A stretch of DNA of 64,000 nucleotides from assembly GCF_031127815.1 (NCBI RefSeq), contig NZ_JARXHY010000016.1, forward strand, positions 1-64,000. Direction: 5' to 3'. This document shows, piece after piece, positions 28,333 through 44,318 of this stretch. Made by a program: the position numbers and the translations under genes. The notes beneath the pieces were generated by a model that was not told the origin of the DNA, did not search any database, and saw only the letters and a program-made list of their open reading frames with translations. Positions within the stretch are counted from its first letter, which is position 1; each line of letters begins with the position of its first letter. The DNA comes from Pelagicoccus sp. SDUM812003 (GTDB lineage Bacteria > Verrucomicrobiota > Verrucomicrobiia > Opitutales > Opitutaceae).

Positions 28333-30669
28333 CTACCGGAGCGGGCTCTCCTTCCTAGACCTAGCTGCGAAATCACTGGAGATCATTGATTGCCCAAGCG
28401 GAATAACCGATTCGCTCTCTGGGTAAACAGACTTCGCCCCTGCGAGCCCCACGCTGCTAACGGATAGGGAGAACGACTTGCATCCCGGATGGCGAACGAG
28501 CACTACCGATGCCACGCCGGATTCGCAGGGCACGTCCTTCGGCCCGACGATCTCGACTCCCGACCCGCATTCGAATGCGACCGTATCCATCGCCGTCTTA
28601 CAGATGTTTCCGTCTTCATCGACTACGCGAGCGTGAGCGAAAAGCACATCCGTTTCGCTCTCTTCGCCCTGGATTCCCTCGTCGGCGATCTGCAGCGTCA
28701 ATCGCGAAGGCGCCCCTGGAGTCGCCAGTTGATGATTGGCGACCTCAACGCCTCCGATGAAACCAACCGCTTCCAGAGCGCCTCTTTCGAATTTCTCGAG
28801 TTGAAAGAGAAAAGGTGGAAACGGAAGTCGCTGGTTGTTTGAGGTACGCGAAGGTTCAAGAGGACCAAACTCTTCATCGTTGAGCTTCAACGCGACCTCC
28901 TCGCAATTGCTGAACACAAGCACGTCGAGGATCGAATTTTCCACCCAACGCGACGCGATGTACACCATAGGTCCACCGCTCCACCTCTCGCTTCCTTCGC
29001 TGGGAGCGCGCTGGCTTTTAAAGAAGAAATACGAGTATTTCGGCAATCGGTGAATGTCCATGACCCCGCACGCGGCCCGAGTGGGACTGTATCCACGCGG
29101 GTAGTCGAACATCGACCAAAGGCCGTCGGTGACCGCGGGGGAAGACAGGGTGTCGTTCAACGCGACGATGTGGTTATGGGCCTGCCGGCGCAGGCGGCGC
29201 TCGCCTTCGCGACGAAAGGCTCGGCTGTTGCTCCAATCCGCCAATAGCCCAGCTCCAGTTTTCTGATCGAAACCTTCGTTCGAAGCGTAGAACTCCCAAT
29301 CGCCATACTCGGCGATAACGAGGGCCTTGTCCTCGTTCTTCCACGTATGAATTTTCCCATGCTGTCGGGAGTGGATGAATACATCGAATCGATCAATCCA
29401 ACCGCAAACAAGCATCTGGTCCCCGGGGTACTCCTCGTGGCCAATGCGCATCATCTCAGTCATGAACGCCTCATCCATTTCTGTCTCGTTCAACGAAAGC
29501 TCCCAGAAAATGACGCACGGATGATTTCGATCCCGGCGCACCAGCTCTCTGGCGTTTTGGTAACACGCCTCTCGGAAAGCGTCTCCTCCAATAAACTGCC
29601 AGCCTGGAATGCAGTTCATCACCAAGATCCCCAACTCGTCGCAAGCATCCAAAAACGCCGGCGACTGCGGGTAGTGGGAAAGCCGAACATAGTCGAAGCC
29701 TGCCTCCTTGATTCGTTTCGCGTCGCGATACTGGGCCGCGTCCGAAAGAGCGTATCCGATCCTTGGATAGTCCTGATGACGGTTCGTACCCCGAGGACGA
29801 ATACGTTTCCCGTTCAGCTGCAGACCTCCGCTGCGAGATACCGCGATATGACGAATGCCAAAACGCTCTTGCACCCGGTGGATAAGACTACCGTTAGGCG
29901 ATACTAGCTCCACTGCGATAGTGTATAAATGCGGTGACGCGAGATCCCAAACGACAGGATCGGAGACCTTGGCGGAAAAGGAATACTCCTGGTCCTTCCC
30001 CGCGGGTACCTCTCCTGATTCTATTTCTCCGGAAACGACAAGTTCTCGCTGCTCATTTTCTATGGCGTAGCGCAAGACGAACGCTCTATCCGAATTCGAA
30101 TCGTTCACCACGTGGGCGGAGATTAATAAGGTCGCCTCTTTCGCATCCAAATTTCCAGTACGAACGAACACCCCTCCGCTTCCGACGACTCCTGCTGAAA
30201 TCGGGTCCGAAATGTGAAGCGACGGATAAGCTCGCAATTCGACATGGCGGTACAATCCGCCATAGAAGCAGAAGTCGAGCTCGTCGACGGGCTTTCCTGG
30301 AGGCACATCTCCATCGTCGCGATTGTCGAGCACAGCTGTCAATATGTGCTCGCGACCGTCGGCCAGCCAGCGTGTCACGTCGATCTCGAATGGCAGGTAT
30401 CCACCTGAATGAGACCCAGCGCATTCACCATCGATGGCAATCTCAGCCGTATGCATCGCCGCGCCAAAGTAGAGCACGTACCGCGTGTCCGGCTCAACGA
30501 TCCCGACCTTCAACGTTCTCGTATATTCGCAAAGCCCCTGCCAATGCCCACAGCCATCCAAGTCTGCTACAAAAGGACTGTGCGGCAAAAAGACAGGAAA
30601 CGGCCCGTCCTCTTGGTCCAAGATTCGAAACGACCACCCGTCGACTAAGCGCTCTCTGAAATATGCCAT
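28333..30669 (-). CDS. GH2 family glycosidase, cytoplasmic (beta-glucuronidase/galactosidase type)
   Basis: 778 residues from the ATG at 30669 (MAYFRERLVDGWSF); a TTG at 30702 behind AGGGCGGG is an alternative. There is no signal peptide, unlike the other four GH2 here. Domains: sugar-binding jelly roll (FGAAMHTAEIAIDGECAGSHSGGYLPFEIDV), Ig domain, and TIM barrel with LNGKRIRPRGTNRHQDYPRIG. FWELSLNETEM carries the acid/base Glu and LVIAEYGDW the likely nucleophile. C-terminal Ig-like domains follow (KLNDEEFGPL). It lies behind a GPH symporter and a LacI regulator, the arrangement of E. coli uidA/uidB, so an imported uronide or galactoside is the probable substrate (inference). Confidence 0.85.
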   Translation of the reverse strand: MAYFRERLVDGWSFRILDQEDGPFPVFLPHSPFVADLDGCGHWQGLCEYTRTLKVGIVEPDTRYVLYFGAAMHTAEIAIDGECAGSHSGGYLPFEIDVTRWLADGREHILTAVLDNRDDGDVPPGKPVDELDFCFYGGLYRHVELRAYPSLHISDPISAGVVGSGGVFVRTGNLDAKEATLLISAHVVNDSNSDRAFVLRYAIENEQRELVVSGEIESGEVPAGKDQEYSFSAKVSDPVVWDLASPHLYTIAVELVSPNGSLIHRVQERFGIRHIAVSRSGGLQLNGKRIRPRGTNRHQDYPRIGYALSDAAQYRDAKRIKEAGFDYVRLSHYPQSPAFLDACDELGILVMNCIPGWQFIGGDAFREACYQNARELVRRDRNHPCVIFWELSLNETEMDEAFMTEMMRIGHEEYPGDQMLVCGWIDRFDVFIHSRQHGKIHTWKNEDKALVIAEYGDWEFYASNEGFDQKTGAGLLADWSNSRAFRREGERRLRRQAHNHIVALNDTLSSPAVTDGLWSMFDYPRGYSPTRAACGVMDIHRLPKYSYFFFKSQRAPSEGSERWSGGPMVYIASRWVENSILDVLVFSNCEEVALKLNDEEFGPLEPSRTSNNQRLPFPPFLFQLEKFERGALEAVGFIGGVEVANHQLATPGAPSRLTLQIADEGIQGEESETDVLFAHARVVDEDGNICKTAMDTVAFECGSGVEIVGPKDVPCESGVASVVLVRHPGCKSFSLSVSSVGLAGAKSVYPESESVIPLGQSMISSDFAARSRKESPLR

Positions 30670-30713
30670 CCTTTTCGGTCTGCGACTTGATTGGTAAGCC
30701 AATGCTACCCGCC

Positions 30714-31706
30714 CTATACGGAATTTCTCTCGATCAACCGCACTGGCATCTTGACCGCTCGCTGGCTGACCTTCTTTCCCGAAGTTAGATTATCCAGCAT
30801 CTCAGCCGCCGTTTCCGCCATTTCCCCCAAAGGCTCCTCTATCGCCGTCAACGGCGGATTGATGAGCTCTGAAATCCCTTCGTTCTCGCCGCCAATGACC
30901 GCTATGTCCTCAGGCACGCGAAGCCCCATCACGTAAGTGAGCAGATGGATGCACTCCATCGCCTGCAGACTTGTACCCGGAACGTAAATACAATCCGCGC
31001 CACCTCTGACGATACGAGTCACCGCTGCCGAATCCCGGCCCGAGCTTGCGGACGCCATCATGCGATTCTCGTATTCTAGCCCCGCCTCCTCTATCGCCTT
31101 GCGGTATCCCAGGAGTCGCTGTTCGAATCCAGGCCCTTCTCCTCCGAAGCAGGCCAGCTTTTTCTTTCCATGCTCGATGAAATACTTCGCTGCCAGATAG
31201 CCGGAGTTGTAGTGATCGGAAAAGATGCAGTACTGCCGTTCCGACACCTCGAACTTGTCCATATATACGATGGGTATCCGTTTTTCGAATTCCTTTAGAA
31301 ACTCGAGCAGCTTCGTATCATAGGTGACGACGACGATGCCATCCAGGAACAGCCCAGGTAGCTCTTCAAATGGATCGGTAGGCAGCACGATACCCATTTT
31401 CTTTCGCGACAAAGCAAAGGACAGGTGAGCGGACAAGGTTGCCGCGTAGCCTTCCACCCGGTCGGAAAACCGAGGATCCGTCAGGATCGCGATCTGCCGC
31501 GAACGAACCGATGCCTGAGGCTTTAGATCCAGCTCCTTGGCCGCCTTCAGAATCGTTTCACGCGTCTCGCTCTTGACGCGGTCTCGGTTGTTCAGCACCC
31601 GACTCACAGTACCGGGTGAAAACCCAGTGTACTTCGCCAAATCGTAGATCGTTATTTTCTTCGCCGTACCGCTATCGTTCGTTTTCACTGTTTTTGCTTT
31701 TTTCAT
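30714..31706 (-). CDS. LacI family transcriptional regulator
   Basis: 330 residues from the ATG at 31706, 7 bases after the symporter stop; the frame runs on to 31739 but would overlap the symporter. The N-terminal helix-turn-helix is KKITIYDLAKYTGFSPGTVSRVLNN with the hinge ETILKAAKELDLKP. The effector domain has the periplasmic-binding fold: QIAILTDPRFSD, LDGIVVVTYD, IPIVYMDKFEV, GYLAAKYFIEHGKKKLACFGG, RVPEDIAVIGGENE and PLTAIEEPLGEM. LacI proteins bind palindromic operators and release them on sugar binding. It sits between symporter and GH2 in one operon, so autoregulation is probable. Confidence 0.9.
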   Translation of the reverse strand: MKKAKTVKTNDSGTAKKITIYDLAKYTGFSPGTVSRVLNNRDRVKSETRETILKAAKELDLKPQASVRSRQIAILTDPRFSDRVEGYAATLSAHLSFALSRKKMGIVLPTDPFEELPGLFLDGIVVVTYDTKLLEFLKEFEKRIPIVYMDKFEVSERQYCIFSDHYNSGYLAAKYFIEHGKKKLACFGGEGPGFEQRLLGYRKAIEEAGLEYENRMMASASSGRDSAAVTRIVRGGADCIYVPGTSLQAMECIHLLTYVMGLRVPEDIAVIGGENEGISELINPPLTAIEEPLGEMAETAAEMLDNLTSGKKVSQRAVKMPVRLIERNSV

Positions 31707-31713
31707 TACGGTG

Positions 31714-33174
31714 CTAAACTGTTCCCCTACGCTCCTCAAGAGCGTCCCTTGTCTCGTATGCTCGCTGGCGTGTTATGGGATAGAAAATAAGAATGACGAT
31801 GGCAAGGATTGCCCACAAGGCAGTGGAAACCGCGAGGAATAGTCGCAAGGTGAGAATGCTCTCGGAGGATTGGTCCCCCCCGAGCTCCGCATCGAAGCCC
31901 GAAACCTGCAAGGCGATCGTCATGCCAAAGATGGAGAGCGAGTAGCCAACTTTCTGTATCCAAAGGAACACCGAGCCAAACATGCCCTCGCGTCGCTGTC
32001 CGTGCTTCAACTCGTCGTCATCGCAGATATCAGCTACCATGGAAGGAAGCAGCACTGCGATGGCTGTCCAAATAGGTCCGCACAACAAAGGGTCGATCAA
32101 AATCTTCCAAGGATTGCCTGGCGTATACAGCACCCACTTCCCGATCGACCCGAGCAAGACCATGGCAAAGATCACGTTCAGCGCGGTCTTCTTGCCATAG
32201 CGATTCGAAAGCCAGTTTATCGGATAAATGGATACGATTCCCACGATCGCGTATCCAGTCGAAAGCACCGCTTTCCAGTGCGACCCTTCCGCGATGTCGC
32301 CGTCGAACATGTAATACACGATCAAGTAGTAGTCCGTGCTCGATGCGAACATGCCGGCCACGATCTGGCAGATGGTCAAAGCGACCAACACCGCAAAGGC
32401 CTTGTTCCTGAGCGACTCCGCAGCGCTCGACCAGAACTTCACCTTCTTCTGCTTCTTAGAGACTTTGTAATAGCGCTCCTTGACGAAGATGCCCGGCAAG
32501 ATCCCGACCAAGCCCAACAGCAGAATCGCCACCGCCCAGCCCACGAATCGAACGCCATACATGACGCTCCCGAAAACCGACAACGTCGCCAGAGGGAACA
32601 GCCACGAATAGCCGAGTTCGCCGATCTTATGGAAGAACCCGCAAAAGGAGGTCACTCGTGTGCGCTCCTTGTAGTCAGGCGTCATTTCAAAGGTCAAGCT
32701 GGTCAACGGCACCCCAAAAATGGTGTAGCAGGTATAGAAGAACAGCAGCGATCCAAGGAGATACCCAGCCATCGCCTTCTCGCCCCAATCCATCGGCACC
32801 ATCCAAATCATGCCAAAAGCGATCGCTTGCAGGATCGCCCCGAGCACGATGAGCGGGCGGCGTCGGCCCCAACGCGTGTGCAAGTTGTCGGAGATGTATC
32901 CAACCGCTGGATCCGTGATGGCATCCCAAAGCCTTGGAATCGACAGCGCCGTGCCCAGGAGGATCGGACTCACATGCAGCGTCATATTGTAGACCGGCAT
33001 GGCGAGGCTGTTCACAGCCATGTTTCCAAAAAACAATGACAAATAGCCCGACCCCAAAGCGGTTTTCTCGCCCAGGCTGACCTTGTCCTCCTCCTTTGTG
33101 GCCCGGTCTTCGCCCTCGCCTCGTGGCATTGGGCCTTTGGGACCCGTATTCGAAGGTGTGTCGGATTCTAGCAT
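31714..33174 (-). CDS. GPH family sugar:cation symporter (MelB/UidB-like)
   Basis: A 486-residue inner-membrane protein with 12 predicted helices and a hydrophilic N-terminal extension of about 35 residues. Family marks: ALSIPRLWDAITDPAVGYISDN in helix 2 and loop, RWGRRRPLIVLGA after it, TSLTFEMTPDYKERTRVTSF in the middle loop, and ADICDDDELKHGQRREGMF in the later cytoplasmic loop. GPH carriers import galactosides, xylosides or glucuronides with Na+ or H+. First gene of the operon with LacI and cytoplasmic GH2. The region upstream contains the palindrome ATTGTT/AACAAT at 33278-33291. Confidence 0.88.
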   Translation of the reverse strand: MLESDTPSNTGPKGPMPRGEGEDRATKEEDKVSLGEKTALGSGYLSLFFGNMAVNSLAMPVYNMTLHVSPILLGTALSIPRLWDAITDPAVGYISDNLHTRWGRRRPLIVLGAILQAIAFGMIWMVPMDWGEKAMAGYLLGSLLFFYTCYTIFGVPLTSLTFEMTPDYKERTRVTSFCGFFHKIGELGYSWLFPLATLSVFGSVMYGVRFVGWAVAILLLGLVGILPGIFVKERYYKVSKKQKKVKFWSSAAESLRNKAFAVLVALTICQIVAGMFASSTDYYLIVYYMFDGDIAEGSHWKAVLSTGYAIVGIVSIYPINWLSNRYGKKTALNVIFAMVLLGSIGKWVLYTPGNPWKILIDPLLCGPIWTAIAVLLPSMVADICDDDELKHGQRREGMFGSVFLWIQKVGYSLSIFGMTIALQVSGFDAELGGDQSSESILTLRLFLAVSTALWAILAIVILIFYPITRQRAYETRDALEERRGTV

Positions 33175-33306: not shown

Positions 33307-36300
33307 CTACCATTTCACTTCTTCGATTTCGAGGCGAGCGACGTCGGCTGCTCCTTCGCCCGTGACTTCGACGCGATAGTTGCCGGGACCGATCGGAGTG
33401 ACGAGGGCTGCGGTAAACTCCGCCGCCTCGCTCGGGCTCATTCCATCTCGCAACGCCAACACTTCTACGATCGAGTCGACATCGCCCTGAATTCTCGAGC
33501 TGTTCGAGGCCAGCAACGTCTCCGATTCCGACCCTGACTGCCAAAGAGAGATGGTCGATGTCGACACCGAGTCCTCGCTCGACCATGCCCGAATCGCGAT
33601 CAAACGATTCTCTCCGCCTTCGACTTCAAAGCGCACGGACACGCCTTCGCTCCGACCAACCGGCCCAGAGATGAGTATATCCGTAAGCCCGTCCGCGCGA
33701 GCGAGGATTTGGTAGGAATCCGTCCCTTCTCCTGAACCGCTGTCGTTGAAAATGAAATACAGCCCTTCTCGATCTTCAGCTTCCGCCGAGGCAACACTCT
33801 TAGCTCTCGCAATAGGCCTCGAGATTCCGTCTACGAATTCCAGAGCGACGAAACGTCCATCCGTTCCCGCGACTGTGGACATGCCGATCAGCGAGCGAGC
33901 CAAGGCGCCCGTTTCGCTTCCACCTGTCCGCAAAGAATGCGCTTTCAAAAACGCTTCCACTCCAATTCGAGCGCCCAAGGTTCGCCCGATGAAATCATCG
34001 GCTCGAACGTGAATGCCACCGTACAAGCGAGAAAGCCCGGCTTGATCCGCCGCGTCGAAATAGGTGGCCCACTGCAAGACGACATCCTCGCTGGGGCCGT
34101 ACTCGAATTCGAGAAAATCGCCTTTGGGAAAAGTGTACTGCCCTATGCCGCCAGGGAAAAATGGCGACCCCGTCAATAGCGACATGACCTCCGCGCCAGC
34201 CCGACTAAAGGTGCTATGACCGGAAACGTAAGCTGCGAACGCCGGCGTAACAAACGTGCTACGCTGATACGGCATCCAGTTTTCCGCGAGGATCCAATCG
34301 ACCCCGCCTACCTGCGAGTGGTGGTCCGCGGGTTCTCCCGCCCAGGCTCGTATTGCAATTTTACCTACCTCCGCCGCCAAGTGTTCGTGACGTTCTCCCT
34401 GCGCCGAGCTCTCCTGTGTAACCACTTCGATTAAATCGTCTATCAGCGGCAATCCGTCTGGATGGTAGCTCGGTCCGTCAGGGTCGCTCGACTGACCGAA
34501 ACCTGCCAAACAACGGATCATCGAGATGGGCCGCGAATAGTCGTACTGCCGCTTGAGGGTCCAAGCCGCCACCGCGGCGTCGTGCATCGCTCCGTTCAAA
34601 GCGAGGTAGGATTGGATGTTCCATTCGAGCTCGTCCATCTCCTCTCCGAGCCCCATGTAATTTCGCTCGAATGAGGGGTGTTCGCTCACTTCGTTCAAAA
34701 GCGTGTTCCAGTGGCCGGGCGGCGTTTCCGAGGCCGGTCCATCGGCCCAGAACTCCGCCAGGATCCGACCATAGTCGGCGTGCCTGACCAGATTTGGCTC
34801 GTACGGCCGGCCCGTAACCGGATTTACACTACGCCCCTCGCCGTCATTCGTTCCCAAAGGATTGTTCAAAAGCCCTCCAGGCGAGATATCGATCATCTCG
34901 CTGGAAGCGGGATCCAGCAGGGAGGAATAGCGAATAACCTCCACCGCCGCATCGACAAACGCGTCATGCGTTTCCGTGCCAAACAACGGCGGAGGGCCTG
35001 GATCCCAAGCGATGGTAATGCCGCTATCCTTCTCGATCGCGAAGGTGTCCACCTCTCGCCAGTTGACCCCCACGAAGCTCTGGACCTTCTCTTCGCTAGG
35101 GATGCCATTTTGCGTGACCCGGAAATCGAAGGCCAACGGCTGCCAGCGGTTCGGATCGTCGATATTTGCGCCGGGCAATTTGAATACCATCGGCTCGTTT
35201 GCCTCAGCGTAGCCGCTCGTATCCGCGTAACCATTCGCTTCATTCGAGCCGTCGTCTAGCGTCTGCTGGAGGATGGAATCCGCAATCCGGTTTCCCACCG
35301 CCGCAGGAGCGTTTCCTACCGTCGTCTCAATGGACGGGTCGTATCCGAAGCGCTCCATCAGCCAGTCGATGTTGTACCGTATCCGTTCGCTACTCACGCT
35401 GTTCTGGTACCGTCTTTTCAATACACGGTAGCACGCGTAACTAATCGCCTCGCGCTGGGCGGCGATTCGATCGCCGAACCAGTCCGCTTCGGAAAGCGCC
35501 TCTTGATGAAAGACAGCTTGCGCACGTTCCCAGCCGTCCTCTTCGTATGCCCAATAGACATCCCACATGGTAGCGGATAGGTGATACAAATTACGCCCAT
35601 GGATGGTGGGGGCGGGAAAGTCCTTACGAATCGCGTCCAACAGGAACTCGTTCCACCAACGAGCGACGGAGTGATCCTGCAGATCGACCGTCACTTCGAC
35701 TATCACTTCCTTGGTCAGGGTTTCTCCCGCCGCGTTTTTGACCCGAGCCCGATAGACACCGGCATCGTAAGGCTGCAAGCGCTTTATCTCAAAATCTTGG
35801 CGATCGGCCCCGAAGATAGATTCGCCATCCTTCTCCCAACTTACCGTCACGCCAGTCCCGCCCAAAACCTCTAGCGAAAGCTCCAAGCGCTCACCCACCT
35901 CGAAGGTCCCGCCAATGGGCTGTGTTTCGATGATGGGAGCAAGCAGCTCGACATCCGGCTCCACAATCACGTGAACTTCGTTCGTATTCAGGTTCTCAAT
36001 ATCCTGTCTAATGCCGCTCGGCCAAACCACCTGGATCGAATCTACCGACTCGCCGGCATCGCCAAGTCCGAAATGCAATACGCCTTCGCGTTGCCCCATG
36101 TAGGCGTTGCTCGGATTGTAGAGACCCGTCTGCGTTCTTTCTCCATCGGTCACTCGCACTACCGCCCCGATTCCGTCGCGATTCGACTGATCGCCCTGAA
36201 AGCGGAAGCGTATCCACTTCTTTCCGTTTTCGGATGCATTGCTGCGATAGATGATCGGTTTGCCGAAGGTTTGGGTGACGATCACGTCCTCGTCACCGTC

Positions 36301-37593
36301 ATTGTCATAGTCGAGCACCACCACGGCTTTGCCATATCCCCTGTCCCCGACTCCCGACGCGGCGGTGATATCGTTAAACCGTCCCGCGCCGTCGTTTTGA
36401 AAGACAGTGGTGGGATCGACGAGAGCGTCCTGATAAAAGAAGACCTCCCATTCCGCCGAATCCATGCCGTTTGTGACGAACAGATCCGGATCTCCATCGT
36501 TGTCATATTCGAAAAATGCAGCCCCCCACGACCATCCGACGCGATCCACTCCGGCGGCCTTCGCGACTTCGAAAAAGCGTCTAGATCCAGAATTCTGATA
36601 CAACTTGTTTCCGGTATTGGTTCCGGTTTCCCCGTAGAGCTTCTGGTCGAAGATCGACGTGGCGTAGTAGTCCAAGTCGCCATCCAGGTCGTAGTCCGCG
36701 ATCGCGATCCCCATGCCGAACTCGTCCAAGCCAACTCCAGCCGTGTCGGTGCCCTCAGCGAAGCTTCCATCCCCGCGGTTCCAGTAGAAGCGGCTCCCTC
36801 CGAAATCCGCCATCAAAGCCAAGTCCGGCCAGCCATCCTCGTCAAAGTCGGCCCAACCAGTGGAAAAACCATGCTGACGCTCCACGCCTGATTCCGGTTG
36901 CACCAGTCCGGCGGCAACGGTCACGTTCTCGAAATGTCCTGGATTTTCCGCCCCCTCGTTTCTCAACAATACGGAGTGCAGCTCCGGCTCCACTCCTGCA
37001 TCCGGTCCCCACTCGCTCACGTAAACGTCCAAGTATCCATCCAAATCGAAATCGACCAAACCGACGCTGTGCCCTTCGTGCGGAAGCTCGCTCGTCGGAA
37101 CTGCTGCGCCCCGCTGCGTGGCTTCCTCGGTGAAAAAGCCCGCCCCATCGTTGATGAAAAGATAGTAGCGCTCGCCCCGGTGCGGCACCACGAACAGATC
37201 CGTATCTCCATCTCCATCGAAGTCCCCCGCGGCGAAGGCGCCGCTGTCCAGCGCCACCGACAGACCTCGTGCGGATCCTTCTTCGGCAAAGGTTCCATCC
37301 CGCTGGTTCATGAACAACACTGGGGGCTTGTTGTATCGCCCCGCCACGAAGTCCGTCCACCCATCGCCGTCGGCGTCGAACGCGGCAGCGCCAGCATGGT
37401 TTGAAACCGGCGTGTGGGTCACTCGATCAAGACCCAACTCCTGGTTGCTCGGCACTTCCTCCTTAGCTGCGTGCAGATAGTCGATTCCCACGCTATCGCT
37501 CACGTTGGTAAACCGGGCGAATCCATCCAACGAATACACCAACATTCCGACGCCAAGAAACGTCCGAATCAAAGTTGAAAGGCTCGCCTTCAT
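33307..37593 (-). CDS. FG-GAP/UnbV propeller fused to Ig domain and vanadium haloperoxidase/PAP2 domain
   Basis: A 1,428-residue secreted fusion. Residues about 30-450 are FG-GAP/VCBS repeats (FDADGDGWTDFVAG, GDFDGDGDTDLFVV, ADYDLDGDLDYY). About 457-547 is ASPIC/UnbV (GIGAVVRVTDGERTQTG, WPSGIRQDIENLN), and about 551-634 an Ig-like domain. About 638-1221 is a vanadium-dependent haloperoxidase/type 2 phosphatase domain with the complete KX6RP...SGH...SRX5HX3D pattern: Lys1014, Arg1021-Pro1022, Ser1124-Gly1125-His1126, Arg1189, His1195 and Asp1199. A roughly 200-residue beta-rich tail follows. Its ATG abuts the TPR gene's TAA (TAAATG), so translation is coupled. Haloperoxidases use vanadate, peroxide and halide; an acid phosphatase activity is the alternative. 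Confidence 0.85.
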   Translation of the reverse strand: MKASLSTLIRTFLGVGMLVYSLDGFARFTNVSDSVGIDYLHAAKEEVPSNQELGLDRVTHTPVSNHAGAAAFDADGDGWTDFVAGRYNKPPVLFMNQRDGTFAEEGSARGLSVALDSGAFAAGDFDGDGDTDLFVVPHRGERYYLFINDGAGFFTEEATQRGAAVPTSELPHEGHSVGLVDFDLDGYLDVYVSEWGPDAGVEPELHSVLLRNEGAENPGHFENVTVAAGLVQPESGVERQHGFSTGWADFDEDGWPDLALMADFGGSRFYWNRGDGSFAEGTDTAGVGLDEFGMGIAIADYDLDGDLDYYATSIFDQKLYGETGTNTGNKLYQNSGSRRFFEVAKAAGVDRVGWSWGAAFFEYDNDGDPDLFVTNGMDSAEWEVFFYQDALVDPTTVFQNDGAGRFNDITAASGVGDRGYGKAVVVLDYDNDGDEDVIVTQTFGKPIIYRSNASENGKKWIRFRFQGDQSNRDGIGAVVRVTDGERTQTGLYNPSNAYMGQREGVLHFGLGDAGESVDSIQVVWPSGIRQDIENLNTNEVHVIVEPDVELLAPIIETQPIGGTFEVGERLELSLEVLGGTGVTVSWEKDGESIFGADRQDFEIKRLQPYDAGVYRARVKNAAGETLTKEVIVEVTVDLQDHSVARWWNEFLLDAIRKDFPAPTIHGRNLYHLSATMWDVYWAYEEDGWERAQAVFHQEALSEADWFGDRIAAQREAISYACYRVLKRRYQNSVSSERIRYNIDWLMERFGYDPSIETTVGNAPAAVGNRIADSILQQTLDDGSNEANGYADTSGYAEANEPMVFKLPGANIDDPNRWQPLAFDFRVTQNGIPSEEKVQSFVGVNWREVDTFAIEKDSGITIAWDPGPPPLFGTETHDAFVDAAVEVIRYSSLLDPASSEMIDISPGGLLNNPLGTNDGEGRSVNPVTGRPYEPNLVRHADYGRILAEFWADGPASETPPGHWNTLLNEVSEHPSFERNYMGLGEEMDELEWNIQSYLALNGAMHDAAVAAWTLKRQYDYSRPISMIRCLAGFGQSSDPDGPSYHPDGLPLIDDLIEVVTQESSAQGERHEHLAAEVGKIAIRAWAGEPADHHSQVGGVDWILAENWMPYQRSTFVTPAFAAYVSGHSTFSRAGAEVMSLLTGSPFFPGGIGQYTFPKGDFLEFEYGPSEDVVLQWATYFDAADQAGLSRLYGGIHVRADDFIGRTLGARIGVEAFLKAHSLRTGGSETGALARSLIGMSTVAGTDGRFVALEFVDGISRPIARAKSVASAEAEDREGLYFIFNDSGSGEGTDSYQILARADGLTDILISGPVGRSEGVSVRFEVEGGENRLIAIRAWSSEDSVSTSTISLWQSGSESETLLASNSSRIQGDVDSIVEVLALRDGMSPSEAAEFTAALVTPIGPGNYRVEVTGEGAADVARLEIEEVKW

Positions 37594-39342
37594 TTAGCCG
37601 TTTTCTCTGAGCCTCTGTTCGATAACCCTGAGCAATTCGCGGTTCCCCTCGCTACGTTGCAAAGCCTCTTTCCAGCTAGCCCTCGCGCCTTCCAAATCTC
37701 CGGAGGCCATTCTCACGTCCCCAAGGCTTACATACAAAACCGGGTCGTTAGGTCGCCGCTCGATCAGGTTCGATACAGTGGCTTCCGCCAGATCGTAACG
37801 CTCGAGTTTCAGGCAAAGCTGAACCTTATTCAGGTAAGCTTCCTCGCCATCTGCCGATACATCGATAGCTCGATCGTAGAATCGGATGGCAGCTTCGAAG
37901 GCGCCCGCGCGAGCTTGCTCGTTTCCTGAACGCAAGTAAGCCAAAGCGAGCAAGGCGCTGGCATCCTGATTCTCCGGGTCGATTTCCACCGCCTCCTGCA
38001 GCGGATCGATGGCATCCTTCGGTTGATTGACCTCGAGAGCATATCGGCCGATCATGACTCGCGAAGCAAGGTCTTGCGGCAGCAGTTGACGCAGCTGCTC
38101 AAGGGCCTGAATCGATTCCTTTCGCTTTCCCAAACTCCAATAGAGCCGGGAAACCTGGCGATTTCCTTCAATGTGATAGGGATCCTTCGCCAAGGCTTTC
38201 TCTAGCCAGCCGATTTGTTCACCGCTGTCCCTTCTTTCGGCGAGAGACGCCATCAAGACTAGGAGGTCTGCATCTCCTCCAGTCCGCGCGATTTCTTCGC
38301 TCACCACAGACTCCGCACGCCCGTTCAATCCCCCTCTCGCAAGGGCATCAGCGAGAAAATAGCGAACGGTGGAAGGATCTCCACCAAACGCTAGGGCTTG
38401 CTCGTAAGCGTCTGCCGCATCCTCGTAGCGGCCCACCTGGTAGAACGCGTATCCTCTTTGTTGGTACGCTTGAGGGTCGTTCGGGCGGATCGCTTCCATG
38501 CGGTCCACCAATTCTAAAGCGCGATCGAGATCGCCGGCCTTGAGGTGGTTCTCGAACACGAAACTGAGCCGCTGGCTGTCGTAGCAATCGTCCATCAGCG
38601 AATCGAGCCACGGATCCGCTAGAGGCGACGGTTTTCGACGAGGAGCGTTTTCGCGGATTTCCGCAGCGAGCTGATCTTGCCCCGCTCTATCCAGAGCCTG
38701 GCTAAGCAGCGAGAACCCGTCCGAAAAGTCAGGATTCGCTAACACCAGTTTCTTCAAAGTAACAATCGATTCGTGGATACGGTTTTCTCGCAACTGGTCC
38801 CGAGCGATAGCCAGCAAAGCATGCGGCTGCGTTTCGTGCGTATCGAGAATGCTACGATATCGGTCCAAGGCCTGATCGGCGTCTCCCGACTTGTATTCAA
38901 GTTCAGCCAATCTGAGTCGGGCCGGCAGATAGTAAGGCGACTTCTCCAAACACTGCTGCAAGGACGTCCGCGCCAGACCGAGGTTGCCCATCTGACTCGC
39001 CAGATCCGACCGACGATAAAGCAGGAGATCCTCTTCGACCTCTTCAAAACTCAAGGCGAGCTCGTAGCACCTCAACGCTTCCTCGTTGAATCCATTTATA
39101 TGATACAGGCCCGACAGCTCGAGCACCGACTGAGCGTGGTCGTTCCACGGCCAGATGAGTCGACTCTCGACCCGGTCCAAGCGCTGATCCAATGCCGCCG
39201 GAAAGCCCTCGGTGTCCGGACGCTCCGGTAGCGCCGAACGAATTGACCTGCCATCGGCATCGCCCCAAAATAGACCAACCGCCAGCGCGACAGCGATCGC
39301 GAGGGAAACGAAAAGGAGTGGTTTAGATTTTGAATGCAGCAT
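37594..39342 (-). CDS. TPR repeat protein with N-terminal membrane anchor
   Basis: 582 residues from the ATG at 39342; the frame reaches a TTG at 39363, but MLHSKSKPLLFVSLAIAVALAVGLFWG gives a short basic lead and one transmembrane helix, so the rest faces the periplasm. From about residue 70 to the end it is made of TPR motifs (SVLELSGLYHINGFNEEALRCYELAL, AYQQRGYAFYQVGRYEDAADAYEQAL, ASALLALAYLRSGNEQARAGAFEAAIRFYDRAI). TPRs make protein-protein contacts; a scaffold or chaperone role for the co-encoded haloperoxidase-like fusion is suggested by the zero-base gap between the genes. Confidence 0.88.
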   Translation of the reverse strand: MLHSKSKPLLFVSLAIAVALAVGLFWGDADGRSIRSALPERPDTEGFPAALDQRLDRVESRLIWPWNDHAQSVLELSGLYHINGFNEEALRCYELALSFEEVEEDLLLYRRSDLASQMGNLGLARTSLQQCLEKSPYYLPARLRLAELEYKSGDADQALDRYRSILDTHETQPHALLAIARDQLRENRIHESIVTLKKLVLANPDFSDGFSLLSQALDRAGQDQLAAEIRENAPRRKPSPLADPWLDSLMDDCYDSQRLSFVFENHLKAGDLDRALELVDRMEAIRPNDPQAYQQRGYAFYQVGRYEDAADAYEQALAFGGDPSTVRYFLADALARGGLNGRAESVVSEEIARTGGDADLLVLMASLAERRDSGEQIGWLEKALAKDPYHIEGNRQVSRLYWSLGKRKESIQALEQLRQLLPQDLASRVMIGRYALEVNQPKDAIDPLQEAVEIDPENQDASALLALAYLRSGNEQARAGAFEAAIRFYDRAIDVSADGEEAYLNKVQLCLKLERYDLAEATVSNLIERRPNDPVLYVSLGDVRMASGDLEGARASWKEALQRSEGNRELLRVIEQRLRENG

Positions 39343-39500: not shown

Positions 39501-42482
39501 TTAGAAGCTGAACGTCGTTTGCATGGTCCAGGTGGGACCAAACTCGATACGGAAGCCAGTCTCCTCGCCGTCCGAGTTAGCGTTGATCGCCTGGAACCCT
39601 TCGTTGCGAGTGAGGTTGCGCACGTTCAACTGAATGTTCATGTCCACACGGTCGCCCATGATCTTCTTGTCGAATCCGATCCAGAAATCGACGTCGAGAG
39701 TGGCTTCGTCCATATAGGGACTGTCGAGCTCCAACCCGATCACGTCACCCGCTTCATTGTTGATGGTCGGGAAACCGATCGCCGCATCGTCCTGCCAACG
39801 CAGCGCTCCGCCAACGTTCCAGCCCTTCATAGCGCCATCGGTGAAGGTGTAGTTAGTGATGGCGTTGGCGCGCCATTCACGAAGCTGGGGATTGGTGGTA
39901 CCCTCCGCTGCCCGGTAGGTCGCAGCAGAGAAGGCTGGGAAAGCGTCGTAGAACTCTGACGGATTGCCCTCGAAGCCCCATGTCGAGTAGGTGAATTCGC
40001 TGTTCCAGACGGAACCGCCGTCGAGGTTTTGCCAATACGGAAGAGCCTCTTCGAGGAACCGCGTAACGGCCGGAGCGATAGCGGAGGAAACGGCATCCTG
40101 CTGAGAAACGTTGGCCATGAAGCGCCAGTTTTCTGTCGGGTTGTAGATCATCTCGATCTCCATGCCTTCGGAAGTCATTTCGGACGTGGATACGATATTG
40201 ATGTCACCCACTTCGAGAGGCGAAACCGGCGTATAAGGCACACCCTCAAGCGCGGCCACGTCAGGCATCACGACGCGGTCGATGAAGAGCAGCTCCCACT
40301 GGGCGAGGCGCATCTGAGGCCCCCAAGGCAGACGATTGTTGCTCTGCTCGACCTCGTACCAGTTGACGCGCAGGTTCATCTTGCCCTCGAGCAGGTTGAG
40401 CCCGAAGCCGAAGTCCACGCCCTCGCCTGTCGGAGGCGGCACGGATTCGCCGAACATGTTGACCTGAGTGGCAGCGGGACGGAAGTTTTCCGACTCGTTG
40501 TAGTGCAGACTCAACCAATCCAGCGGGTGAACGACGACCCCCATGGTAGTGGTAGAACCGCCAGATTCAGCCGGCTCTCCCGCGGAGTCGCCGAGAATCA
40601 GCAATCCGTCATCACCGAGCGCCGTGTAGGAATTCGTAGCCTTCTCCTGAGTGTCGTCGCGCCAGCCTGCAGTGCCGACTACTCTCCCGTCGAGCCAGTA
40701 GCTCTGCCAGATGAAACCAGTCGAATCGACGGTTTCAGCCTGAACATCGCGACGCTTTGGCGTGAACATCGAGCTGTAGCTATCCGTCGCCCAGGCGCCA
40801 GCGTCCGCATCCCAATAGAGATTGGGCACGCCTGATGGCGTCAGGTCCGGAACGCCCGGAGCGATGGTGGCTTGAGAGTCAGCAGTGCCGCCGAGGTAGC
40901 GGATGCGGGTCATCTGCCACAAGTCCTCGTTTACCCGGTTATTCGTGGGAAGGTAGTCTACCAGCTCGGAACGGATTTCGTTGAAAACCGTATTGGTGTT
41001 TCCCGTCTCCTGGCGCTCCGCCAACGCCGTGAAGTTGTGGCGACCGAGCCACTTGTTGCGATCCCGGAAGTCCAGCTCGTAGGTCAGCGTGCCGCGCAGC
41101 ATCTCGTTGTCGGCGTTGCGGATCGATTTGCTGTCGAGCGTTCTCTGAGGAACGTAGGTCTCGCCGAAGTGCGGATTCGGAGTGCCGTCCATGAAGTGCG
41201 AATTGTTATCCACCCAGATCTGGAAGCCCCAAGTGAAGCGCTGGGTGTCCTCCTCGTAGTCCTCGCTGAGGTATCCGATATTCAGATACAGGTTTTCCGC
41301 GAGCTTCTGGTCCCAGCTGAGCGACAGGGCCTCGAAGTCGTGGTTGCGCAAGCTTGGGTTGAGGTTCATGTCGTGGAAGGGAGCGATCTTGTTGTCGGAG
41401 AACGCCACCGAGGTGTAGTTGTCCGCGTCGCCTCGCTGCTGCACGACTCCGGTGAACCAGCGGTCATTGCCTCCTGTGAGGAACTGAACCGTGTTTCCAT
41501 CGTAGTCGGTGATCGCTACGGCGCCCACGTTCTGCGGGCGGGTGAGATACTCGGGAGCCTCGCTGTACAGCTGCTCCGCCGCGTTCCAAGCCGGCCTTCC
41601 CTGCTCGACCCACTCCGACACGTAGTCGATCGGCGTGATGGAGTTCGGATTGTTCTGCTCTTGACGCACCACTTCGTAGTTCAGCTTGAAGGTGGCGTTC
41701 TCGAAAGGCTTGTAAGTGGTCGCCAGGTTCAGCCGATTGTCGTGGTAGTAGGCAGGCTGCTGCTGATAGCCGCGATCGGCCCAGAGTCCAAGGACGCGCA
41801 CCGCCAACTTGTCCTCGATCAGCACCCGATTGAAGTCCGCGGTGGACCGGAAATCCGAATTCGATCCGACTCGGAGCGACAGCTCGCTGCTGTCTTCAGC
41901 TACCACTGCGCTCTTGGTCATGTAGTTCACGACACCAGCTGGGTCAGCCATACCATAGAGGATGGAGTTCGGGCCGCGATTGACGGTCACACGCTCGAGA
42001 TTGTAGGCGTCGATGCCGACGCTGCCGCCGATCGAGCGGAAGAAATCGCGCGTCAATTCGGCGTTCCCCAATCCACGCACACGGTTCTGGATGTTCGGAT
42101 TGTCAGATACGAAGTCCTGCGTCCCGTTTCCGCCCGCGTTGGTGTAGTTAAGCGTGCTTTCCGTGTTCGAAGTATAAACGAGAATGTCGTTCAAGTCGGC
42201 AGCGCCAACGTCCTCGATGAAGTCCTCCGTCACTACGCTGATCGAAGCGGCGACGTCCTTCAGCTGGGTGTTGATACGGCTGCCTGCCAGAGTGCTGTTA
42301 GCACGGTAGCCTTGGTCCTCGTCCGCGCTCACCTCGAAAGGAGACAGCGTGAAGATTTCCTCTTCCTCGTCATCGGTTTGCGTCCAACCTGTTGAGAGTG
42401 GCACGACCGATACGAGGGCAGCGATAGCCGCCCTTCGGGCAAGCGATCGCGATATGTGGGGGTGTTTATCAATCAGTTTCAT
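39501..42482 (-). CDS. TonB-dependent receptor (FecA-like plug, Opitutae type)
   Basis: An outer-membrane receptor of 993 residues. A signal peptide ends near STGWTQ, followed by EEEIFTLSPFEVSADEDQGYRAN, the N-terminal pattern I associate with Opitutae receptors. The plug has NTQLKDVAASISVVTEDFIEDVGA, RVRGLGNAELTRDFFRSIGG, VTVNRGPNSILYGMADPAGVVNYMTK; the rest is barrel, ending in aromatic TWTMQTTFSF. It is preceded by the FG-GAP lipoprotein gene, 321 bases upstream, and followed by a terminator. Oligosaccharide uptake is likely from neighbours; siderophore uptake is typical for similar plugs elsewhere and cannot be ruled out by sequence alone. Confidence 0.9.
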   Translation of the reverse strand: MKLIDKHPHISRSLARRAAIAALVSVVPLSTGWTQTDDEEEEIFTLSPFEVSADEDQGYRANSTLAGSRINTQLKDVAASISVVTEDFIEDVGAADLNDILVYTSNTESTLNYTNAGGNGTQDFVSDNPNIQNRVRGLGNAELTRDFFRSIGGSVGIDAYNLERVTVNRGPNSILYGMADPAGVVNYMTKSAVVAEDSSELSLRVGSNSDFRSTADFNRVLIEDKLAVRVLGLWADRGYQQQPAYYHDNRLNLATTYKPFENATFKLNYEVVRQEQNNPNSITPIDYVSEWVEQGRPAWNAAEQLYSEAPEYLTRPQNVGAVAITDYDGNTVQFLTGGNDRWFTGVVQQRGDADNYTSVAFSDNKIAPFHDMNLNPSLRNHDFEALSLSWDQKLAENLYLNIGYLSEDYEEDTQRFTWGFQIWVDNNSHFMDGTPNPHFGETYVPQRTLDSKSIRNADNEMLRGTLTYELDFRDRNKWLGRHNFTALAERQETGNTNTVFNEIRSELVDYLPTNNRVNEDLWQMTRIRYLGGTADSQATIAPGVPDLTPSGVPNLYWDADAGAWATDSYSSMFTPKRRDVQAETVDSTGFIWQSYWLDGRVVGTAGWRDDTQEKATNSYTALGDDGLLILGDSAGEPAESGGSTTTMGVVVHPLDWLSLHYNESENFRPAATQVNMFGESVPPPTGEGVDFGFGLNLLEGKMNLRVNWYEVEQSNNRLPWGPQMRLAQWELLFIDRVVMPDVAALEGVPYTPVSPLEVGDINIVSTSEMTSEGMEIEMIYNPTENWRFMANVSQQDAVSSAIAPAVTRFLEEALPYWQNLDGGSVWNSEFTYSTWGFEGNPSEFYDAFPAFSAATYRAAEGTTNPQLREWRANAITNYTFTDGAMKGWNVGGALRWQDDAAIGFPTINNEAGDVIGLELDSPYMDEATLDVDFWIGFDKKIMGDRVDMNIQLNVRNLTRNEGFQAINANSDGEETGFRIEFGPTWTMQTTFSF

Positions 42483-42803: not shown

Positions 42804-44117
42804 CTAGTCCCGATCCCAAACGCTCACTCGGCTGACGTGCTCCATAGGAGGGTAAAAATAGAATCCTCCGCTCACCAGCTCGTCGCGACCGTCTCCATCG
42901 AGGTCGCCTGCTTCCAAGGTGATCAAATGGGTCGGAGCGTGGGCCAAGATGCGCTTTTCGAAGCGACCTGAACCGAGGTTCTCGTAACAGGCCAACGAAA
43001 CTGCGGAGGAGTCCGACCAATCGTTGAAAGCGCTCGTAGCGAGGAAGTCCAAATCTCCGTCCCCGTCGATATCCGTCACTGACGGGGCATAGGCTCCGGA
43101 CAGATCGCCTATACGATGAAAGGTGAAGTCTCCTGCGCCATCATTCTCCAGCCATTGGACACCATGCCAGCGCCTCGCCCCAGGAGTGGCGTAGTCAAAT
43201 CCGTCCCCGTTCGTGTACGCGATATCCACGTCACCATCCTGGTCCATATCCACTAACTGAATACCGCTACTTCCGTAATCCTTGTTGGTTGACCCATGCA
43301 GCACTCTCGCCTGAAAGCTGCCATCGCCTCGGTTCTCGAACAAGTAGATCTCCTCCCAGTCCTGGGAAACCAGGGCGATGATGTCTAGATCACCATCGGC
43401 ATCCACATCCGCCACCGGCGTATGAATGGCTCCCGACAGACTCAAAAGATTGTGGCTTTCGAACTCCCAGTTTCCCGAGTTTTCCATCCAGAAGACCTCT
43501 CCCTCGAAATAGCCAAACGCTCCGACCGAGAGATCGAGATCGCCATCTCCATCGAGATCCCCCGCTTGCACATCGGTGACTCGATCGATTCCCTCGACCA
43601 GAACGCGCTCGCTGAAGCTTTGGTTGCCGTCGTTTTCCAGCACGATCACCGAGCCGATCTTCTGGTCGTTGGGCGTCACGATGCCCATGCTCGCAACCAG
43701 AAGGTCCAAATCTCCGTCCCGATCCAGATCGCAAGCCTCCACGTGAGCGGCTCCCGCGATTCCTTCCGCTATGACGAACTCCGCGAAAACTCCCGGCGTC
43801 ACCTGGCGAATCCAAGCAACCTTGTTCAACCGCCCCTCCGTGAAAACGACATCGACAAGACCGTCGCTATCCAAATCAACGATCGCAATATCCGTCACCC
43901 ACGGAAACCCTTCCACTGGATCGCCGATGGTTCTCCAATTCAGGTATCCAAGTCCCAATACGGAATCGGCAACACGCTCCGACTCCCCAGAGCTCTCTCC
44001 TGCGTCGCCGCATCCACTCAAGAGGACCGCCGCCACGCTCAGCGCAAGCGCAGCTGAAAGTCGATACAGCGTCTTATCGACTGGATACAGCAAACGAGAC
44101 TTCAGGGAACGAGCCAT
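42804..44117 (-). CDS. FG-GAP/VCBS repeat lipoprotein
   Basis: 437 residues from the ATG at 44117; the frame is open to 44186, but MARSLKSRLLYPVDKTLYRL leads directly into a hydrophobic segment and the lipobox LLSGC with Cys36, so it is a lipoprotein. The mature part is a beta-propeller of FG-GAP repeats with repeated calcium loops (VDLDSDGLVDVVF, CDLDRDGDLDLLVA, GDLDGDGDLDLSVG, ADVDADGDLDIIAL, TDIDGDGDLDFLAT, GDLDGDGRDELVSG). There is no ASPIC/UnbV domain. It lies directly upstream of the TonB receptor, a position where Bacteroidetes would have a glycan-binding lipoprotein; a similar role here is my inference. Confidence 0.83.
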   Translation of the reverse strand: MARSLKSRLLYPVDKTLYRLSAALALSVAAVLLSGCGDAGESSGESERVADSVLGLGYLNWRTIGDPVEGFPWVTDIAIVDLDSDGLVDVVFTEGRLNKVAWIRQVTPGVFAEFVIAEGIAGAAHVEACDLDRDGDLDLLVASMGIVTPNDQKIGSVIVLENDGNQSFSERVLVEGIDRVTDVQAGDLDGDGDLDLSVGAFGYFEGEVFWMENSGNWEFESHNLLSLSGAIHTPVADVDADGDLDIIALVSQDWEEIYLFENRGDGSFQARVLHGSTNKDYGSSGIQLVDMDQDGDVDIAYTNGDGFDYATPGARRWHGVQWLENDGAGDFTFHRIGDLSGAYAPSVTDIDGDGDLDFLATSAFNDWSDSSAVSLACYENLGSGRFEKRILAHAPTHLITLEAGDLDGDGRDELVSGGFYFYPPMEHVSRVSVWDRD

Positions 44118-44318
44118 ATACGCGTATCTCAAAATCACATTCGGAAAAGCCCTCGAATGAGAGCCGAGCGATCGACCCCATCCCACTCCCGGCTCCTTCT
44201 GTCAAACCGTTTATGATCTTCGCATTCCAGACCTACTCGCTGCCAGATCTTCGCGAGACGAAAAGTTGACGAATTTCGCCTACGACGCCGACTTTTGTTT
44301 GTCGAACAAATCGATAAA

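Follow-up and report, generated by a model that had tools for sequence, protein, structure and literature searches.

Vanadium haloperoxidases (VHPOs) make diffusible, bleach-like oxidants, and how bacteria direct these oxidants is, to our knowledge, an open question. Described members of the superfamily include NapH1 and NapH3 of Streptomyces, the halogenase XhnO11, the Curvularia chloroperoxidase and the Zobellia iodoperoxidase. We likewise know of no assigned bacterial role for the CRTAC1/UnbV proteins, which combine FG-GAP repeats with an UnbV/ASPIC domain. Here we describe a gene of Pelagicoccus sp. SDUM812003 in which the two kinds of protein are joined. It is located in a stretch of 64,000 nucleotides (positions 1 to 64,000 of contig NZ_JARXHY010000016.1, assembly GCF_031127815.1), referred to below as the window. 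No report of a haloperoxidase paired or fused with an FG-GAP, UnbV or CRTAC1 propeller was found in the literature searched. On balance we think it probable that this gene encodes an exported oxidase that depends on vanadate, belongs to the VHPO superfamily and is covalently linked to a CRTAC1-type propeller, the latter serving as its targeting or scaffold subunit.

The fusion gene occupies nucleotides 33307 to 37593 of the minus strand and codes, from its ATG, for a 1428-amino acid protein whose N-terminus is signal-peptide-like when inspected by eye. The CRTAC1-like front end encompasses residues 27-545 (nucleotides 35959 to 37515) and includes five stretches of FG-GAP_3 (Pfam, E 1.1e-38) followed by UnbV_ASPIC at residues 474-540 (nucleotides 35974 to 36174; E 2.2e-16), which is the order of parts expected of CRTAC1/ASPIC-UnbV proteins. 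An Ig domain of the I-set type is found at residues 555-626 (nucleotides 35716 to 35931; E 2.4e-6), followed by the 585-residue VHPO domain at residues 638-1222 (nucleotides 33928 to 35682), assigned from Pfam, a sequence profile, a structural model and solved folds. The remaining residues 1223-1428 (nucleotides 33310 to 33927, the start being approximate) are modeled as a C-terminal beta domain, for which no Pfam family was found. The structural model of residues 24-636 (pLDDT 89.2) has murine CRTAC1 as its best match in the PDB (9etn, E 1.7e-30, TMq 0.66), and the next matches displayed are nearly all Ig-domain proteins; the front end can therefore be considered to consist of a CRTAC1-type protein with an Ig domain behind it. 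UnbV matches are numerous in this group of bacteria, with 14 to 29 per genome in three genomes. A near full-length paralogue of the fusion, 42% identical over residues 70-1415, is present elsewhere in the same genome (L015:7830-12077; loci are designated here by L numbers). A preliminary description, made from the letters of the sequence, had proposed a propeller, UnbV and Ig front end ahead of a domain of the VHPO superfamily in which the motifs of the vanadate site are complete. The Pfam, profile and model results agree with it, its coordinates and the residues that it named (Lys1014, Arg1021, His1126, Arg1189 and His1195) are correct, and S1124, G1125 and D1199 are present as well.

The motifs of the predicted vanadate site, K1014-x6-R1021-P1022, F1119, S1124-G1125-H1126 and S1188-R1189-x5-H1195, span nucleotides 34009 to 34554, with W1011 just ahead of them. 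Conservation was evaluated in an alignment of 83 rows, one being the window sequence and the other 82 being segments taken from 81 loci. Residues K1014, R1021, P1022, S1124, G1125, H1126, R1189, H1195 and D1199 are invariant in all 83 rows, as are W1011 and F1119, and S1188 is kept in 82. F1119 presumably corresponds to F397 of the Curvularia chloroperoxidase, and W1011 to its W350. F397 of the Curvularia enzyme is named as a suspected halide acceptor in PMC10427571. A profile made of 42 sequences of the family matched solved VHPOs with E values of 1e-27 (9ptr), 3e-27 (9l8x), 1e-23 (NapH3), 5e-18 (NapH1), 4e-13 (4cit, named a bacterial iodoperoxidase in Foldseek) and 8e-8 (Curvularia chloroperoxidase). 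This homology excludes a chance origin of the site pattern. In the profile alignments K-x6-RP falls on the matching motif of five solved VHPOs, and both SGH and SRx5H fall on their equivalents in 4cit. The SGH position reads SGS in XhnO11 and SGF in NapH3, and thus the family described here retains the histidine of the 4cit type, which we take to be present also in the Curvularia enzyme. An AlphaFold2 model of residues 632-1428 (pLDDT 89.7, pTM 0.92) was compared with the PDB using Foldseek, and all 25 matches with E <= 1e-3 were VHPOs, the top one being NapH1 (3w35, E 2.7e-21, TMt 0.81). The predicted convergence of the vanadate ligands in space is supported only by way of this confident fold match and the sequence alignment.

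A VHPO fold does not by itself define the reaction, and two other activities have to be weighed. The first is that of an exported phosphatase or ester hydrolase with a VHPO fold, in which the pocket would bind phosphate, the enzyme would free phosphate from glycans or organic phosphates, and the propeller would hold it on the polymer. According to PMC4859513, acid phosphatases are considered to resemble the VHPOs in structure and cofactor binding, and V-CPO can act as a phosphatase; this latter activity counts against the oxidase reading. The same paper describes an acid phosphatase with one helix bundle, as opposed to the two of VHPOs. A PhoD-like phosphatase gene is present beside the paralogue L015. 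On the other hand, none of the 25 fold matches mentioned above was an acid phosphatase, and PAP2 remained below threshold on the fusion protein (17.9 bits against a cut-off of 27.2). The invariance of W1011 and F1119 in the 83 rows, two positions that presumably match those of the chloroperoxidase, is a further argument against this activity. The phosphatase alternative is thus disfavored by the Pfam and fold searches, and we regard it as unlikely. Comparison with both haloperoxidases and phosphatases, proposed in the preliminary description as a check on its own assignment, returned a VHPO fold and, at E <= 1e-3, no phosphatase, so that the close phosphatase match named there as a refutation did not occur.

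The second alternative, to which we give the same low probability, is a substrate-specific oxidase or rearrangement enzyme of the NapH kind, which would act on a defined phenolic or terpenoid product and release no free hypohalous acid, the propeller binding the substrate or a carrier. By fold, the solved structures closest to the domain belong to NapH1, to the halogenase XhnO11 and to NapH3, the last of which catalyzes a rearrangement (title of 8cxl), a point that also weighs against the preferred oxidase reading; the esterase-like genes of the locus could free phenolic acids. Against it are the SGH motif, kept here and replaced by SGS in XhnO11 and SGF in NapH3, and the neighbors listed, in which we noticed no cluster for a natural product, no dedicated cluster tool having been used. 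The vanadate-dependent oxidase remains our preferred reading of the domain. As for the Pfam families that do match it, DUF6851 is found at residues 711-819 (37.5 bits against a cut-off of 27), and VCPO_2nd reaches 27.9 bits against a cut-off of 27 with its best stretch at residues 995-1032, the single stretches all being non-significant. The latter proved weak as a genome-wide probe and gave no above-cut-off match in the window's own genome.

The association of VHPO domains with propellers was then evaluated beyond the window. One genome per species, for a total of 84,980 species, was scanned for the VHPO domain, and the best 80 of 116 loci were kept, with identities of 43-79% over the best segment. 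FG-GAP front ends are found among the kept loci in L017-L021, L023, L049 (labelled Actinobacteria) and L093 (labelled Bacteroidia, lacking UnbV). Removal of four near copies and of the eight fused loci left 68 of the 80 for a positional control, in which the LVIVD-fused L064 was retained. A gene matching a propeller hidden Markov model (HMM) is found within 700 bp of the VHPO open reading frame (ORF) in 14 of these 68 loci, and only two such genes are located farther away, although the far regions comprise 582,524 bases and the near ones 87,659 (a ratio of 6.6; binomial p 4e-11, uncorrected for relatedness). The HMM was built from the fetched loci themselves, and Pfam backs all 14 near neighbors: UnbV_ASPIC is above cut-off in 13, and FG-GAP alone is detected in L066. 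Eleven of the 14 are on the same strand as the VHPO gene and three (L034, L066 and L070) on the opposite one. The coding ends overlap in both gene orders; in L040 the propeller gene is first and overlaps the ATG of the VHPO gene as ATGA, and in L057 it is second and overlaps the VHPO gene as GTGA. Two ORFs make up the split propeller of L025, the UnbV-bearing one starting 695 bp from the VHPO. The 14 loci are labelled as Chloroflexi, classes of Actinomycetota, Gammaproteobacteria, Planctomycetota, Myxococcales and one unplaced bacterium. Propellers are therefore fused to, or adjoin, VHPO domains in unrelated lineages beyond what chance would give. The preliminary description had considered haloperoxidases of this superfamily to be mostly free-standing; this holds for the present family, in which 59 of 81 VHPO ORFs are of 850 amino acids or less (starts being mechanical), but about a fifth of the non-fused loci adjoin a propeller gene.

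Clustering of the neighbors with no prior expectation also placed the propeller family first, with nine loci, the other clusters being mostly clade-level synteny; six near copies and seven loci whose VHPO ORF lost to a longer overlapping ORF were excluded from it. The ORFs were called mechanically, with approximate starts. Since a longer wrong-frame ORF sometimes won in the GC-rich loci, the neighbor checks were repeated in all frames. The number of UnbV (PF07593) matches was determined in the genomes of 12 of the 14 paired loci (all but L066 and L060) and was 1, 1, 1, 2, 1, 1, 1, 3, 5, 1, 1 and 12. Conversion of coordinates identified one match in each of the 12 genomes as the neighbor of the VHPO gene, which is therefore the sole UnbV found in 8 of them.

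Several results weigh against a general partnership of the two proteins. No propeller-HMM gene is present within 700 bp in 54 of the 68 non-fused loci, and among 23 genomes drawn from these 54, 16 have UnbV elsewhere and seven have none. The neighbor in L066 consists of 12 FG-GAP stretches and a dockerin, with no UnbV detected by Pfam. The VHPO domain was present in 12 of 132 genomes of a sample by order and in 14 of 387 of a sample by phylum, and no propeller-HMM match was obtained in the 17 non-fused rows of these samples within flanks of about 1.1-1.5 kb per side at most (the rows represent 15 distinct genes, L127 being the same as L176, and L175 and L178 forming one tandem ORF). The records of the 14 paired loci are nearly all metagenome-assembled genomes, and kin loci were counted separately (e.g., L030/L031 and L060/L061), so that the independent cases are fewer than 14. 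An obligatory pairing of VHPO and propeller is rejected by the 54 of 68 loci with no near propeller and the 7 of 23 genomes with no UnbV. The eight sole-UnbV genomes, considered together with the non-paired VHPO genomes, indicate that the pairing is recurrent and specific where present, but optional.

The adjacency could also be a by-product of genes for secreted proteins accumulating in variable regions, with no joint function. The many non-fused loci that lack a propeller neighbor and the patchy distribution of the VHPO domain are what this would predict. The VHPO neighbor being the only UnbV found in eight genomes, the overlap of coding ends in both orders and the fusions found in four places of the domain tree (see below) argue otherwise, and we consider such a by-product quite improbable. 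Our preferred interpretation remains that the recurrent partner of these VHPOs is the propeller, fused in the window and separate but adjoining elsewhere; judged from gene order and domain content it is the better supported candidate, and the data suggest that CRTAC1 and VHPO proteins work as a pair.

The window's genome has a second, shorter VHPO of another lineage, only distantly similar to the fusion's domain (E 1.7e-13). Its gene, for 427 amino acids, (L014:9844-11124) directly precedes a 1173-amino acid FG-GAP/CRTAC1 gene (L014:6207-9725). Ten genes of this short type were found in 7 of 194 genomes; four of them have a same-strand adjoining propeller-HMM gene (L186, which is the window genome's own, L187, L188 and L194), one (L189) has such a gene at roughly 0.7-1 kb, and none was found in the flank examined for the other five. 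Propellers of other families are also associated with VHPOs. In L064:3617-9106 the VHPO is fused behind LVIVD repeats, together with Big_7 and TSP3 repeats, and in L051, L054, L081 and L094, of a Myxococcota-type clade, the neighboring protein carries NHL-type repeats, which Pfam confirmed for each of the four. Seven of ten other long VHPO front ends, all of that clade, touch a propeller family below cut-off (E 0.00027-0.22; we take Tectonin and PSII_BNR to be propeller families), and Pfam detected none in those of L063, L081 and L033. The NHL neighbors and the LVIVD fusion hint that recruitment to VHPOs may extend to propellers at large and not be confined to UnbV. Two peculiarities of individual VHPO genes were observed. 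L175 and L178 (genome G342) share a 1403-amino acid open frame with two tandem VHPO domains. L117 (genome G062) has one TAA within the matched frame of the VHPO search, which is probably an ordinary stop because here, just as in the near-identical L021, ORF and domain end together.

A tree of 86 VHPO domains was constructed by a quick method that does not tell the direction of change, after 9 of 95 rows (near or second copies) had been dropped. UnbV fusions occupy four positions on it, namely L049, L121, L120 together with L132, and the clade of the window. The fusion label changes five times on this tree, likewise when only the starred branches are counted, and the fifth change is that at L022/L038 within the window's clade, L038 being truncated by a contig end. 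When the fused and same-strand adjoining states are combined the number of changes is nine. The front ends of L120 and L132 closely resemble the window type (phmmer, 414 and 392 bits), and hence these two and the window's clade may share one fusion that was later transferred or lost. On the other hand, the front end of L049 resembles the separate 588-amino acid propeller protein of L040 (606 bits, the next best being 142 bits), which suggests at least one independent CRTAC1-VHPO fusion.

Directly upstream of the fusion is a gene for a 582-amino acid TPR protein with a hydrophobic N-terminus by eye (nucleotides 37594 to 39342, minus strand); as the preliminary description had stated, its TAA is immediately followed by the ATG of the fusion. 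The proposal built on this junction, a two-gene TPR-fusion system, did not survive a search of other genomes. We examined 16 fused loci with their flanks: the window, L015, L017-L021, L023, L179-L181, L183-L185 and, as more distant members, L049 and L093. With all frames considered, a TPR relative directly precedes the fusion in three of the 16, namely the window, L017 (Verrucomicrobiae bacterium DG1235) and L179, which is from a genome of the same family. A pair formed by TPR and FG460 genes is beside the fusion in L018, on the opposite strand, and no TPR relative was found beside the fusion in the remaining 12. FG460, named after a 460-amino acid FG-GAP protein of the window (nucleotides 42804 to 44186, minus strand; lipobox-like N-terminus by eye), has relatives whose next ORF is a TPR relative in 13 of 15 cases, found in 7 of 52 genomes (loci L139-L153 and the window). 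The window is among the two exceptions, a gene for a TonB-dependent receptor standing there between FG460 and TPR. Three of the six FG460-family genes of the window's genome also adjoin a TonB receptor gene. By gene order FG460-TPR is a conserved module. The genes for FG460, TonB, TPR, the fusion, GPH, LacI and GH2 are grouped in three genomes; FG460 is directly ahead of TonB-TPR-fusion in DG1235, and the order in L179 is TonB-TPR-fusion-FG460. The module and this grouping indicate that the TPR protein belongs with FG460 and that, on gene order, it is a co-traveller of the fusion. That the TPR protein is instead the membrane anchor of the peroxidase, as the abutting genes of the window and the same order in L017 and L179 might suggest, is very unlikely, and TPR as the VHPO partner is rejected, given 3 of 16 loci for that arrangement and 13 of 15 for FG460-TPR.

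The surroundings of the fusion have, as proposed in the preliminary description, the composition of a glycan locus when scanned with Pfam. The genes, all on the minus strand, include those for the TonB-dependent receptor (993 amino acids, Plug domain; nucleotides 39501 to 42482), a GPH-type sugar transporter (MFS_2; 31714 to 33174), a LacI-type regulator (30714 to 31739) and a GH2 glycosidase (28333 to 30702). Relatives of the last three follow the fusion in the same order in L017 and L179. The GPH relative of DG1235 (L017:9510-11005) is matched in two overlapping frames and is possibly frameshifted there. Elsewhere in the locus are GH43, GH35, several GH2, GH3, GH53 and arabinofuranosidase genes, and also esterase-like genes, SSF, MFS and GPH transporters, and regulators. 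This set of glycosidases makes an arabinogalactan-like substrate likely. The paralogue L015 is in an agar-like locus, near GH16, an agarase-CBM protein, GH42/35-like genes and a TonB receptor. Of the 16 fused loci, seven (the window, L017, L018, L020, L179, L184 and L185) have a TonB gene no more than two genes away from the fusion. In L184, several ORFs around the fusion, beside the TonB receptor, appear sulfatase-like by eye.

A working mechanism can be outlined from the chemistry of known VHPOs. Vanadate would be bound to H1195 and held by K1014, R1021, S1124 and R1189, with H1126 acting as acid-base. Hydrogen peroxide would generate the peroxovanadate, which would convert halide to hypohalous acid outside the cytoplasm. 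The propeller would bind a surface or polymer, so that a short-lived oxidant is released there, the target being the glycan, its phenolic decorations, competitors or host defenses. Since the fusion forms a run with TonB, FG460-TPR, GPH, LacI and GH2, the oxidant probably acts on a galactan-like polymer or on its phenolic decorations, or is employed while these are taken up. The preliminary description had suggested attack on plant or algal matter, or defense during growth on it. Upregulation of the Zobellia iodoperoxidase vIPO3 with a brown alga, as compared with alginate, is reported in PMC9296495; by analogy this is in keeping with a function connected with algae or plants and is no demonstration of it. 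The mechanism is weakened by the fact that no H2O2-making enzyme was seen among the 28 window proteins scanned with Pfam.

Sequence comparison and modeling show that the protein has a complete vanadate site and the folds of a VHPO and of CRTAC1, and that the two proteins are recurrently linked by fusion, overlap in either order or adjacency. A wider proposal, which we advance tentatively as a possibility somewhat short of probable, is that CRTAC1-type propellers and VHPOs constitute a recurrent two-part exported oxidant system, present in several phyla and repeatedly assembled as a fusion or operon, in which the propeller would direct or control where hypohalous acid is released, on a selected surface or polymer, and that LVIVD, NHL and UnbV-less FG-GAP propellers have apparently been recruited likewise. 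A recurring propeller partner would offer a concrete and testable answer to how bacteria direct VHPO oxidants. The pairing also gives a handle on the CRTAC1/UnbV proteins, for whose bacterial members a two-part oxidant system, if true, would be a functional context. In the window's group of bacteria it would also tie halogen chemistry to polysaccharide loci.

Compared with known systems, the window locus resembles polysaccharide utilization loci in its TonB receptors, GH2/3/35/43/53 and arabinofuranosidase enzymes, sugar transporters and LacI regulator, to which it adds FG460-TPR and the CRTAC1-VHPO fusion. The VHPO domain shares its fold with NapH1, NapH3 and XhnO11 (E 2.7e-21 to 1.1e-19), and the K-x6-RP and SR...H segments can be aligned. 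The identity is 18-20%, the PDB chains of these enzymes match the VHPO domain alone, and the aligned segments of XhnO11 and NapH3 lack the SGH histidine, unlike the family of the window. Superfamily and fold are also common to the Curvularia chloroperoxidase and the Zobellia iodoperoxidase, with weaker fold matches (E about 1e-12 to 1e-11), and 4cit has SGH with an F seven residues ahead of the H, as in the window VHPO. The front end has the FG-GAP and UnbV parts of the CRTAC1/ASPIC-UnbV proteins. We know of no enzyme domain fused to mammalian CRTAC1; in the window, the CRTAC1-like part is joined to a domain with the features of a vanadate-dependent enzyme.

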